DNA from: Anaerolineae bacterium
Lineage (GTDB): Bacteria; Chloroflexota; Anaerolineae; 4572-78; J111
Assembly: GCA_016926805.1 (NCBI GenBank)
Contig: JAFGNV010000187.1
Span: 1 to 64,000 of the forward strand
Length of the DNA stretch: 64,000 nt
Direction: 5' to 3'
Each line of letters starts with the position of its first letter. The first letter of the stretch is position 1. Positions 9,445-14,161 of this stretch are shown in pieces. Under the pieces are notes generated by a model. That model did not search any database and was not told where the DNA came from. It worked only from the letters and a program-made list of their open reading frames with translations. A program made the position numbers and the translations under genes.

Positions 9445-10683
9445 TTATGATGTTGGCAGCACAAAACTGAACTGCGTGCCCTGCCCCACCTGGCTGTCAA
9501 CCCAAATCCGACCCTGGTGAGCCTCGACAATGCGTTTGGCAATGGCCAGGCCCAGGCCGGTGCCGCCGGTTTCACGGCTACGGCTTCTTTCGCCCCGGAA
9601 AAACTGGTCAAACACGTGGGGCACATCCGCCGGGGTAATGCCCTCGCCGGTATCAATTACATCTACCTGTACGCCATCCGGCGTTGTTTTGGCGGTCAGG
9701 GTAATGGCATTTCCCGCCGAGGTGTGTTGAACGGCATTTTGCACCAGGTTATACAACACCCGCTGGATTTTGGCCGGTTCGGCCGGGATCAGGGGCAAAT
9801 CCTCGCTAAAGACGCCTCCCCTCAATAAAACACCTTTGGCTCTGGCCTGAACCTGCATGGTTTCTAACACATCCGAGAGCAGGTCATTCAGATCGACCGG
9901 CTCCAATTGCAGTTGGACGTGTTCCGTTTCCAGTTTCGACAACTCAAACAGGTCATTGATGAGATTAGACAGATTTTCAATCTGAGAGCGAATAGTGCCG
10001 TAGTAGCGCTGCACGTCAGTGGGATCGGTTACCATGCCGTCGGCCAGGGCCTCAATCATGGCCCGGATGGAGGTGAGCGGCGTGCGTAGATCGTGGCTAA
10101 CGGCGGCAATCAAATCGCGGCGGGCCTGTTCCAACGTTTTCTGCCGGGCAAACGACTGCTGCAATTCGTCGGCCATTTTATTGAAAGCCTGGGCCACATC
10201 GGCCAACTCATCCACTTCCTCTATCTTGACCCGCGCTGAGAAGTTGCCAGCCGCAATTTTTTGCGCCCCCTGTTGTAGCAAACTCAAAGACTGGGTCATA
10301 CTGCTTGCCAACAAATAACCAAACGAGGCCGAAAGGATACCGGCAAACAATAACAGCAGGCCCAGCAGTAGAAAGTCGTGGGGGGAAACAAACATCAACT
10401 GGGAAGTCACATACACGTTTACCAACGTAATAACCACACCCAGGCCGTAGGCCAACAATACTTTATAACGAATACTGGACAGCCATTTGCGTCCCATAAC
10501 GAAAACAAGGTAGCCAATCAACAACGAAGGCACGCTGGAGGTCAACAAAAACTGAACCAATGCCTTCAGGTCATCCATGGGGGCCTGCATGATATAACCG
10601 GCAACGGCCACAGCCGTCAAAAAGGCCCCCACCAAGCCCAGAAGCGGGGGCCAAATTGTTTTAAGATTTATTCTGGCGTTCAT
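9445..10683 (-). CDS. HAMP-domain sensor histidine kinase
   Basis: Four predicted TM segments, HAMP region, H-box AVSHDLRTPLTSIRAMIEAL, N-box NLVQNAVQHT, G-box GTGLGLAIAKRIVEAHQG. ATG at 10683 follows the RR stop. Confidence 0.93.
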   Translation of the reverse strand: MNARINLKTIWPPLLGLVGAFLTAVAVAGYIMQAPMDDLKALVQFLLTSSVPSLLIGYLVFVMGRKWLSSIRYKVLLAYGLGVVITLVNVYVTSQLMFVSPHDFLLLGLLLLFAGILSASFGYLLASSMTQSLSLLQQGAQKIAAGNFSARVKIEEVDELADVAQAFNKMADELQQSFARQKTLEQARRDLIAAVSHDLRTPLTSIRAMIEALADGMVTDPTDVQRYYGTIRSQIENLSNLINDLFELSKLETEHVQLQLEPVDLNDLLSDVLETMQVQARAKGVLLRGGVFSEDLPLIPAEPAKIQRVLYNLVQNAVQHTSAGNAITLTAKTTPDGVQVDVIDTGEGITPADVPHVFDQFFRGERSRSRETGGTGLGLAIAKRIVEAHQGRIWVDSQVGQGTQFSFVLPTS

Positions 10684-10687
10684 CAAT

Positions 10688-11392
10688 TTATTCCCCTGCC
10701 GCAAACTTATAGCCTATCCCCCAGACGGTCAAGATATGTTCTGGTTTGGTTGCATTCTGCTCAATCTTTTCCCGCAACCGACGCACGTGCACGGTAACGG
10801 TACTGGCATCGCCAAAAAAATCATAGCCCCACACGTTATCCAGCAACTGATTACGGGTAAAAACCTGGTTAGGATGATTCATCAGGAACCAGAGTAAGTC
10901 AAACTCTTTGGCGGTCAACACCACCTCCCGCTCGCTTCTAAACACCTGGCGGGTGGCTGGGTTGATGACGATAGCGCCCCTGACCAATGGTTGAGCCTGG
11001 GGGTCCACCAGGGGTTTGGCTCCGGCGCGACGCAGCACGGTTTTGACCCGGGCCACCAGTTCTTTAGGGCTGAAAGGTTTGGTGACGTAATCGTCCGCGC
11101 CCAATTCTAACCCGGTAATTCGATCCGACTCTTCACCTTTGGCGGTCAACATGATGATAGGAATATCAACCTCACCCTGCCGCAATATCCGCGTAATCTG
11201 CAAACCGTCAACTTGGGGCAACATCAGATCGAGCACAATCAGATCTGGTATTTTACGGTCGATAGCGGCCAGAGCCGCCTCGCCATCGGCCGTAACCTCA
11301 ACTTCAAAGCCTTCTCGCCGTAGATACAGTTCGACCACTTCTCGAATGTTCGGTTCGTCGTCAACCACCAGGATACGTTGTTTGGCAGGCAC
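10688..11392 (-). CDS. OmpR/PhoB-family response regulator
   Basis: Receiver domain (ILVVDDEPNIREV, DLIVLDLMLPQVDG) and winged-helix output domain (VWGYDFFGDASTVTVHVRRLREKIE). Confidence 0.95.
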   Translation of the reverse strand: MPAKQRILVVDDEPNIREVVELYLRREGFEVEVTADGEAALAAIDRKIPDLIVLDLMLPQVDGLQITRILRQGEVDIPIIMLTAKGEESDRITGLELGADDYVTKPFSPKELVARVKTVLRRAGAKPLVDPQAQPLVRGAIVINPATRQVFRSEREVVLTAKEFDLLWFLMNHPNQVFTRNQLLDNVWGYDFFGDASTVTVHVRRLREKIEQNATKPEHILTVWGIGYKFAAGE

Positions 11393-11427: not shown

Positions 11428-12225
11428 TTATAACACTTCTTCAACCAGCAACGCCTGAATTATCTCTTCCTGCTTGTCGTAACCACCCTCGCCGAGGTGA
11501 ATGTACCGGATATTTCCTGCTTTGTCAATAATGTATTTGGCCGGCCAGTAGTGGTTATTGTAAGCGCGCCAGGTTTGCCAATCGTTGTCGATGGCGATGG
11601 GGTAAGGCACATCCAAACGAACAATGGCTTCTTTCACATTATCTATGTCGCGCTCGTGGCTAAATTCCGGGGTATGCACGCCGATGATAACCAAACCGTC
11701 GTCGTTGGTCTCGTTATACCATTCCCTCAACGAGGGAATTACATGGATGCAATTAATTCAGCCATACGTCCAGAATTCAATAATAACCACCTTCCCCTGC
11801 AAGTCGGCCAGGTGCAGCGGCTCCGAGTTGAGCCAGACCTCATTGTTCAATTCCGCCGGGCGGCCAAGCACAGGCAGGTTGGCCAAAAGTTGAAGTTGAC
11901 CCGTGGTTGGCCGGGGGTCGATTTCTGCCGTTACCGGCGACGTTTTCTCGCTGGTAATCATTTCTGGAGTTGTTGCTTCTGCCGTTGGTTCGGTTTCGGC
12001 CACAATGTCCTCTTTCGGGACCATTATTTCTTCAGTCGTCGGGGTGGTGGGGGTATCTTTTTGAGCAATGCCGGCGTTTTCAACACCCGGCTCCTCGGAT
12101 TGAGCCACCACTGGGGGCGGCGATTCTTCCGGTTTCACCCCCGCTGAACCTGACTCAACCGCGCTGCAAGCGGTCAAAAGGATTGAACCACAGAGCAAGA
12201 ATTGTAAGTAACTTAATCGCGTCAA
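11428..12225 (-). CDS. Candidate selenoprotein: TlpA/DipZ-like redoxin lipoprotein with Sec (UGA at 11758..11760) in a UxxC motif
   Basis: ORFs 11758..12225 and 11428..11730 share one frame. The joined reading is ...LHLADLQGKVVIIEFWTYG-U-INCIHVIPSLREWYNETNDDGLVIIGVHTPEFSHERDIDNV...YWPAKYIIDKAGNIRYIHLGEGGY... (265 aa). Lipobox LLTAC at the N-terminus. RBS AGGAG upstream of a TTG start. Confidence 0.85.
11721..11739 (-). promoter_or_regulatory. Candidate bacterial SECIS hairpin
   Basis: Minus strand ATTCCCTC-GTT-GAGGGAAT: perfect 8-bp stem with a 3-nt loop starting with G; 26 nt between the UGA and the loop. Confidence 0.75.
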
Positions 12226-12319
12226 GCTAAATTCTCCTTTCCATCGTCAGGATTGATGTTGGCAAATTTAGTTTAAGCGAGAAATCTTACAATTTTATTG
12301 CACGGCAAACCCCAAACAA

Positions 12320-12354
12320 AACCCGCGAAGGGGAGGTGCATTCCTTCGCGGGTT
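12320..12354 (-). terminator. Rho-independent terminator of the 12389..14161 gene
   Basis: aacccgcgaagg / ccttcgcgggtt 12-bp stem, followed on the minus strand by TTTGTTT. Confidence 0.7.
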
Positions 12355-12388: not shown

Positions 12389-14161
12389 TTATTTTTGTTT
12401 GATCAGCAAGTCGTAATCTATGTCCAACACCGAGTCATTTCGGACCCGGATGAAATAAATAGTGTTTGACACCAAATGACCGTCCCAAACCCAGGTATGA
12501 GTATCGGTTACCTTATTGTATCTCAGATCGCTTCCTGCGCCCAGGGGCACAATCTGGTCGGTGTCGCCACGCCGCCAGAGCTGTTGCTCCTGGTAGGGAT
12601 AAATTTCCACATTGACATGATTAGAAATATGACCCATGCCGGGAGTATGATTAAGTTCAATCAAGTAGGAACGGAACTCGAACCTGTCGGGGTCGGCAAT
12701 TTTGTTTTCAAACTGATACCAGATGTCTTCACCGGCGGCCAACTTGGCCCGGGTATGCCCCAGCCCAATGATCAGCGGCGAGCCGATGTCGTTACCGGTA
12801 GGGGTCAGTTCTATGTATGGCGGGAATGGGTTAGCATTGACCAGTGGCGGGCCCATTTCGATATTGATAATATCATCGGGAATGAGATGGTAATCAATCC
12901 ATTCCTGGCTGCCGTTGGTGAGCTTCACAAAATACTGGTCGCCATCGAGCACCGCGCCACGCCATAAACGCTCGCCGGTGTTGTAATCTCCATCTCGAGA
13001 CACCCACGAGCCAACCCCAAAATGGGCCATATCGTCCGGCGTGCCGCGTTCCCAAATTTGGTATTGACTGCCGGTAAACATTTCAAAGGTCACCAGGCTG
13101 GCAATGTTTGGCTCGCCGGGGGTAAAAAAGATGGTTAGCGACATGTCCTCAAGAAGTTTACCATCCAACTTGCCGGGAGTAAACGTGTACCAGTGTTCGG
13201 CGCCGGGAGCCATCCGGCCGGTGTTGGGACCTTGCAGCAATTTGATCGGCTGATTGGGGTAAATACTGTATCCCTGGGTGGGGTCAGGGGAGGTGGTGGT
13301 TATCACTTCCGCGCCATTGGCCCCCTCCGTCTGGCCGGCCGTGGTGGTAACGCTGGCATCGGGATTGATCGGCACCAGGGCAGATGAAACATCGCCCAAC
13401 GGTAACCAACCCAGCGCAGCCGCCGACATTAGCCACAGGGCGGCCTCTTGCGGCGGCAATCCGTGGATGGCCTGAGCCGCCAGAAGCCAGTTGGTAGAAA
13501 CAGGGGCGCCGTCTGGTTGGATGGGTAAGGTATCAATTATAGAGGCCTGCCCACCCAGGTCCGGAGCGGTAAATTCAATGGGGGATACGCCGCCCGACAC
13601 GCTGATAGCCGCCGGAATGACCGGCTGGCCAGAAGTTGAAGCAGGAGCGGCAATAGCTTCAAGTCCTGGGCTTTTCTGTCCCAAAGCAGTCAGGCGATAT
13701 TGCACCGGGCTGGGCGAGATATTGAAAACGCGCACGTAATATACGTCGGTAGGCGCTACGGGACCGGCCCAAAAACGCTCACCGGTGTTCACATCAAAGT
13801 CGGCGCTGGCCGGCATGCCCAGCCCCAAGCTATCAATCGGACCGCTGTTGTCTTTGAGCCAGGCCTCTACCTGGACAAAATTGAACACCTGAAAATTCAC
13901 CCGGCTGGCCACGGCCCGGCCTTCGGCCTCAAAATTGAGGCTGAGCACCACCGAATTGTAGGCGGGATCGCCCAAATCCGCACGGCTGTAAGCGTACCAA
14001 TATTCTTGCCCCGGATTGAGCGTGCCGGTGTTCAACCCGCTCACCAGTAAATCGGCGGCATAGGGGCTGCTGCCCACCATACCCTGTCCAGCCCAAACCG
14101 GAATGGCTGTTACCAGTAACAAAACAGCCAGCAAAATTACTATCTTTATTGCTGTTTTCAT
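12389..14161 (-). CDS. Secreted protein with three PPC-like beta-domain repeats, function unknown
   Basis: Signal peptide (IVILLAVLLLVTAIPVWAG). Three repeats marked by LNPGQEYWYAYS / MAPGAEHWYTFT / LAAGEDIWYQFE, the first two also carrying (V/Y)NTGERxWxGxV. Confidence 0.75.
   Translation of the reverse strand: MKTAIKIVILLAVLLLVTAIPVWAGQGMVGSSPYAADLLVSGLNTGTLNPGQEYWYAYSRADLGDPAYNSVVLSLNFEAEGRAVASRVNFQVFNFVQVEAWLKDNSGPIDSLGLGMPASADFDVNTGERFWAGPVAPTDVYYVRVFNISPSPVQYRLTALGQKSPGLEAIAAPASTSGQPVIPAAISVSGGVSPIEFTAPDLGGQASIIDTLPIQPDGAPVSTNWLLAAQAIHGLPPQEAALWLMSAAALGWLPLGDVSSALVPINPDASVTTTAGQTEGANGAEVITTTSPDPTQGYSIYPNQPIKLLQGPNTGRMAPGAEHWYTFTPGKLDGKLLEDMSLTIFFTPGEPNIASLVTFEMFTGSQYQIWERGTPDDMAHFGVGSWVSRDGDYNTGERLWRGAVLDGDQYFVKLTNGSQEWIDYHLIPDDIINIEMGPPLVNANPFPPYIELTPTGNDIGSPLIIGLGHTRAKLAAGEDIWYQFENKIADPDRFEFRSYLIELNHTPGMGHISNHVNVEIYPYQEQQLWRRGDTDQIVPLGAGSDLRYNKVTDTHTWVWDGHLVSNTIYFIRVRNDSVLDIDYDLLIKQK

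Follow-up and report, generated by a model that had tools for sequence, protein, structure and literature searches.

A probable selenoprotein family of DipZ-type redoxins in Chloroflexota, with an in-frame UGA at the active site

We propose, with a probability of about 95% judged from sequence, that a gene of an Anaerolineae bacterium encodes a single 265-residue lipoprotein in which an in-frame UGA is read as selenocysteine (Sec) by the host SelA, SelB, SelD and tRNA-Sec, under the direction of a SECIS element. The UGA and the hairpin that follows it have been kept in dozens of related bacteria, which argues for a real selenoprotein. The gene lies in a stretch of 64,000 nucleotides, referred to here as the window, and the relevant features within it are as follows.

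12234 to 12240, minus strand: ribosome-binding site AAAGGAG, located 8 nt 5' of the TTG start (from sequence).
11428 to 12225, minus strand: coding sequence of the redoxin lipoprotein, with a TTG start at 12225-12223 and a TAA stop at 11430-11428; 265 residues including the proposed Sec156.
12166 to 12177, minus strand: lipobox LTAC (residues 17-20), preceded by a hydrophobic signal segment (from sequence and the lipobox consensus).
11884 to 12165, minus strand: low-complexity Pro/Thr/Glu-rich linker from the lipid anchor to the domain (from sequence; low model confidence).
11440 to 11883, minus strand: thioredoxin-fold domain of the DipZ type, residues about 115-262 (model pLDDT about 97; PDB matches).
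11758 to 11760, minus strand: in-frame UGA, the proposed selenocysteine codon and first residue of the UxNC active site (TGA, TGC or TGT in the homolog column).
11721 to 11739, minus strand: proposed bacterial SECIS hairpin, 8-bp stem and GTT loop (from position, covariation and association with Sec on the tree).
10688 to 11392, minus strand: OmpR-type response regulator, a conserved neighbor (Pfam Response_reg 1.9e-34, Trans_reg_C 2.2e-31).
9445 to 10683, minus strand: histidine kinase, a conserved neighbor (domains HAMP, HisKA and HATPase_c).

Two minus-strand open reading frames, 12225..11758 and 11730..11428, lie in one frame, and the gap between them consists of the TGA at 11760-11758 and nine sense codons. 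An earlier note on this DNA had described this split and a continuous read-through product of 265 residues, and both were borne out when the sequence was re-read: the TGA is the sole interruption of the frame, which continues for 109 codons to the TAA. Upstream, at about 12320-12354 on the minus strand, there is a strong inverted repeat, AACCCGCGAAGG...CCTTCGCGGGTT, followed by a T-rich stretch. This is likely the terminator of the gene upstream of the redoxin, which therefore probably has its own transcript start. A 590-residue protein with no Pfam match is encoded at 12389-14161 (minus strand), and the same protein is found upstream of the redoxin at three other loci (L055, L104 and L131).

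Domain analysis of the read-through product gave Pfam matches that span the UGA and exceed the cut-offs: AhpC-TSA (1.4e-14), Redoxin (6.1e-11) and Thioredoxin_8. The active site reads WTYG-U-INC, with the UGA at its first position, and residues W152, C159, W227 and P228 are invariant among 30 aligned sequences. Both the redox motif (UINC) and the conserved Trp-Pro loop are present, as is the case for TlpA/ResA/DipZ-like redoxins. An AlphaFold model was built from the 30 aligned sequences with Cys substituted for Sec, and the best PDB match is DipZ of Mycobacterium tuberculosis both by sequence (1.2e-40) and by fold (1.1e-19), followed in the sequence ranking by SOQ1 and NHLRC2; the Pfam matches across the UGA and the rank of DipZ confirm the TlpA/DipZ-type thioredoxin fold suggested previously. 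The protein falls below the threshold of the ResA subfamily model NF002854 (60.7 bits versus a curated cut-off of 170). The C-terminal thioredoxin domain of DipZ (2hyx, 5cyy) is the nearest solved structure and shares the W-x-Y-x-C-x-N-C pattern, but carries Cys where the window redoxin has UGA, and the match is limited to this domain, the window redoxin being a small lipoprotein. NHLRC2 and SOQ1, thioredoxin-NHL proteins (6gc1, 7djj), belong to the same thioredoxin subfamily; NHL repeats are absent from the window redoxin, whereas long UGA homologs in other Chloroflexota families have them, as NHLRC2 and SOQ1 do. The lipoprotein signal was judged by eye, as LTAC behind a hydrophobic stretch, and by the lipobox consensus the protein is predicted to be an extracytoplasmic lipoprotein.

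Homologs were collected from 301 Chloroflexota genomes, from 396 genomes of the class and by a scan of genome contigs, which yielded 127 homologous loci with a readable active-site column, some of them near-copies of one another. Across these loci, which represent many families, the column contains TGA in 68, TGC in 42 and TGT in 17 cases, and no other codon. The UGA thus falls on the catalytic first Cys, as had been claimed, and Cys occupies the UGA column in 59 of the 127 loci, the alignment check that the earlier note had proposed. Two apparent UAA codons at the column (G607 and G463), considered as possible Sec by UAA, both proved to be Cys and were rejected. UGA homologs come in three forms, namely a short lipoprotein-like one, a long one with NHL repeats and, in family f33, a divergent group. 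The long form (L088-L100, from other Chloroflexota families) carries the UGA in WTFC-U-INC together with a conserved hairpin of its own; NHL repeats were seen in L091, the single long-form protein examined in full, and we regard these proteins as candidate NHLRC2-like selenoproteins. In family f33, L086 and L087 are two facing or diverging genes, each with WTYT-U-PVC. On a tree of 120 sequences there are 12 changes between Sec and Cys, at least 8 of which are forced by well-supported branches.

The hairpin at 11739-11721 reads ATTCCCTC-GTT-GAGGGAAT. Its 8-bp stem, G-first loop and 26-nt distance from UGA to loop agree with the earlier description, and it forms part of the predicted fold. The folding check proposed in the earlier note was upheld in that respect but not in terms of stability: taken by itself, the 71-nt stretch has an ordinary folding energy (z -1.25, with 26 of 200 shuffles as good). 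Because free energy is a weak criterion here, comparative and synonymous-codon tests were used in its place. When the codons of the window gene are replaced by random synonymous ones, a hairpin at this exact site, given the encoded peptide, has P = 0.0075. The real significance of the hairpin is its recurrence in relatives, where its position is constant within the main Sec clade. Of 37 distinct Sec genes of the short form, 28 form all eight pairs at the identical offset and 4 more form seven of them; another 4 carry a 6-bp variant, ATCCCT-AGTTTG-AGGGAT, and the last (L148) has a shifted stem resembling that of the long form. Compensatory changes from C-G to T-A are found in L038, L063, L133, L142 and L127, from T-A to C-G in L137 with a Glu to Gly change, and from T-A to G-C in L139, where Ser becomes Ala and Arg becomes Gln. 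Pairing is therefore preserved despite an amino-acid cost, which is attributed to selection on the RNA.

The hairpin also follows the Sec codon. With randomized synonymous codons the median P is 0.0065 for the 37 Sec genes versus 0.56 for 14 short Cys genes, and in Cys versions the hairpin is mostly lost. Genes of the long form bear a hairpin of their own in the same place, with seven pairs in 11 of 13 sequences. Of eight independent Sec/Cys contrasts, a mean of 6.6 show the hairpin accompanying Sec and none show the opposite (median sign-test P 0.016). One Cys gene, L024, retains the 8-bp stem and has C where the loop G stood; it looks like a fossil SECIS left after a recent Sec-to-Cys change. 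UGA homologs of family f33 showed no strong hairpin at the usual position, so their SECIS, if any, differs. A search of Rfam returned no named element at the hairpin.

The machinery for Sec insertion is present in the host genome, a metagenome-style assembly of 5.34 Mb in 222 contigs. SelA, SelB and SelD score 577, 334 and 361 bits, respectively, and SelD has its own in-frame TGA at the active site. The tRNA-Sec (anticodon TCA) was located by pattern search at the end of contig C116; it is cut 5' by the contig end, so that the first 12 model positions are absent, and scores 50.9 bits versus a gathering score of 47. The top-scoring tRNA-Sec matches in the host are in fact tRNA-Ser or tRNA-Leu and were rejected. 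The host search for selA, selB, selD and tRNA-Sec suggested by the earlier note thus found them all, the tRNA being 5'-incomplete. In the phylum sample SelA occurs in all 49 genomes with a UGA homolog and in 51 of the 64 whose homologs all lack the UGA (Fisher P 5e-4, uncorrected for relatedness). SelA is widespread in the phylum (244 of the 301 sampled Chloroflexota genomes), so its presence alone says little, and the association is supportive rather than decisive. As a discriminator of Sec from Cys we consequently set SelA presence aside as weak; the informative part is that no UGA homolog in the phylum sample lacks SelA. Among 77 selected genomes, the two UGA-bearing ones that had no SelA match are both 78% complete. 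Three further host proteins of the AhpC/TSA family (L151, L152 and L153, on contigs C11, C53 and C116) each have exactly one in-domain TGA, in contexts that include FVU-ATE and GGU-TIQ, and are probable selenoprotein peroxiredoxins by sequence.

If the UGA were a true stop, the gene would be a nonsense pseudogene of recent origin, or it would encode a short, 155-residue lipoprotein. TGA is indeed an ordinary stop in this genome, ending 21 of the 50 long frames of the window, and a truncated copy exists in G488, the one same-genus genome. There, the homolog at L131:1485-1797 is missing its start, the UGA and the entire 5' half, and the junction falls within the hairpin, at its 3' arm. Conservation persists in what remains (dN/dS about 0.09), and the missing part reflects either a deletion of very recent date or faulty assembly. 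A true stop is nevertheless very unlikely, given the same codon in the same column at 68 loci across many families, the covariation of the hairpin, and the state of the downstream part, which is open and under purifying selection. Past the UGA, comparisons of the window gene with Sec relatives give pS of 0.5-0.9 and pN of 0.15-0.32, and dN/dS is about 0.1-0.22 where synonymous sites are unsaturated, similar to the codons before the UGA; in the comparisons with L111 and L080 these sites are saturated and give no usable dN/dS. The earlier argument that 109 open, family-like codons speak against a decaying pseudogene was therefore sound, and relatives retain the UGA with an intact downstream half.

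Read-through by a leaky or recoded tRNA could in principle insert Trp or Cys with no selenium involved, and the assignment of Sec is itself made from sequence. We consider this highly improbable, since the termination of ordinary host genes by TGA excludes global recoding, the homolog column holds Cys and never Trp, the hairpin is tied to the UGA, and the host possesses Sec machinery that includes a SelD with its own UGA. The assembly being metagenome-style and in 222 contigs, one might also suspect a sequencing or assembly error for TGC or TGT in this genome alone. This explanation is barely credible: the UGA stands in the same place in independent same-family assemblies (L102, L103, L106 and L115), and a single TGA is present in 46 of the 70 class genomes having a close homolog, as tallied from search rows, which rules out a base-call error.

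In the selenoprotein interpretation that we favor, the hairpin just past the UGA would direct Sec insertion by the host system, and the product would be anchored outside the membrane, presenting a DipZ/TlpA-type thioredoxin domain with a Sec-x-x-Cys site. The selenolate of Sec156 would attack a disulfide or another oxidized substrate in the cell envelope, and Cys159 would resolve the resulting selenenyl-sulfide. A CcdA-type membrane protein may feed electrons to the redoxin; a possible source is a CcdA-like membrane protein encoded on another host contig, where it adjoins another TlpA-like gene (24.8 bits versus a Pfam cut-off of 27.1).

The genomic neighborhood offers a further indication of function. 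The response regulator begins 35 nt after the redoxin stop, the ATG of the kinase lies 4 nt after the regulator stop, and the redoxin and regulator likely share an operon. The order redoxin, regulator, kinase is kept in the host family, while a regulator-kinase pair (L059, L080) or a kinase (L024, L025, L038, L133, L135, L142, L144) precedes the redoxin in other families. Conservation in two gene orders argues for a functional link, and the two-component neighborhood suggests a role of the redoxin in redox signaling or envelope stress. As an addition compatible with the selenoprotein reading, the redoxin could serve the adjacent system as its redox partner or be its target, and in this way report on oxidation of the envelope or repair it. 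We hold this only tentatively and at less than even odds: adjacency may reflect simple co-regulation, and many loci have no similar regulator within 1.5 kb downstream of the redoxin.

UxxC selenoproteins as such have been catalogued before. A 2026 inventory of 119 prokaryotic selenoprotein families (PMC13188914) includes "UGC-containing TlpA" and, in its Table 1, "Redoxin family protein PF08534 UxxC" (representative HEU0032618.1), "Thiol-disulfide isomerase-like cd02966 UxxC" and a Prx-like thiol:disulfide oxidoreductase with UxxC; the GOS survey lists a Prx-like 3 with UxxC (PMC2398784). The UxxC entries have the superfamily, the motif and the insertion machinery in common with the window redoxin. 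In the text of the inventory that was read (PMC13188914), no entry is of the DipZ or NHL type or comes from Chloroflexota, and a literature search covering few subscription papers gave no DipZ-type selenoprotein; the search likewise gave no report of human or plant NHLRC2 or SOQ1 as selenoproteins. The NF041054 model (WAxxUGC_long) describes a ResA-like selenoprotein with the motif UGC, as opposed to UxNC here; it does not match the window redoxin, and one homolog reaches 18.7 versus 300 bits. Neither the window redoxin nor four relatives reach the cut-off of any NCBIfam model. The earlier designation of the protein as undescribed consequently stands for the family and fails for the class. Its family is set apart from the catalogue entries by their descriptions and may overlap with an existing one; the DipZ-type redoxin would be a new selenoprotein family within the known UxxC kind.

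A more far-reaching proposal is that a widespread, unnamed Chloroflexota selenoprotein family of the DipZ/NHLRC2 type, with many Sec/Cys switches, acts outside the membrane as redox partner of an adjacent two-component system, the two forming a selenium-based circuit for redox sensing or repair in the envelope; we advance this as speculation that is on balance unlikely. For annotation, pipelines with no model for the family would report the gene of each UGA-bearing genome as two fragments, and correct annotation would add a selenoprotein family, comprising short lipoprotein and long NHL forms, to a phylum rich in SelA. The forced changes between Sec and Cys, at least eight in number, and the remnant hairpin in L024 would provide a natural series in which to ask why Sec is kept or dropped.
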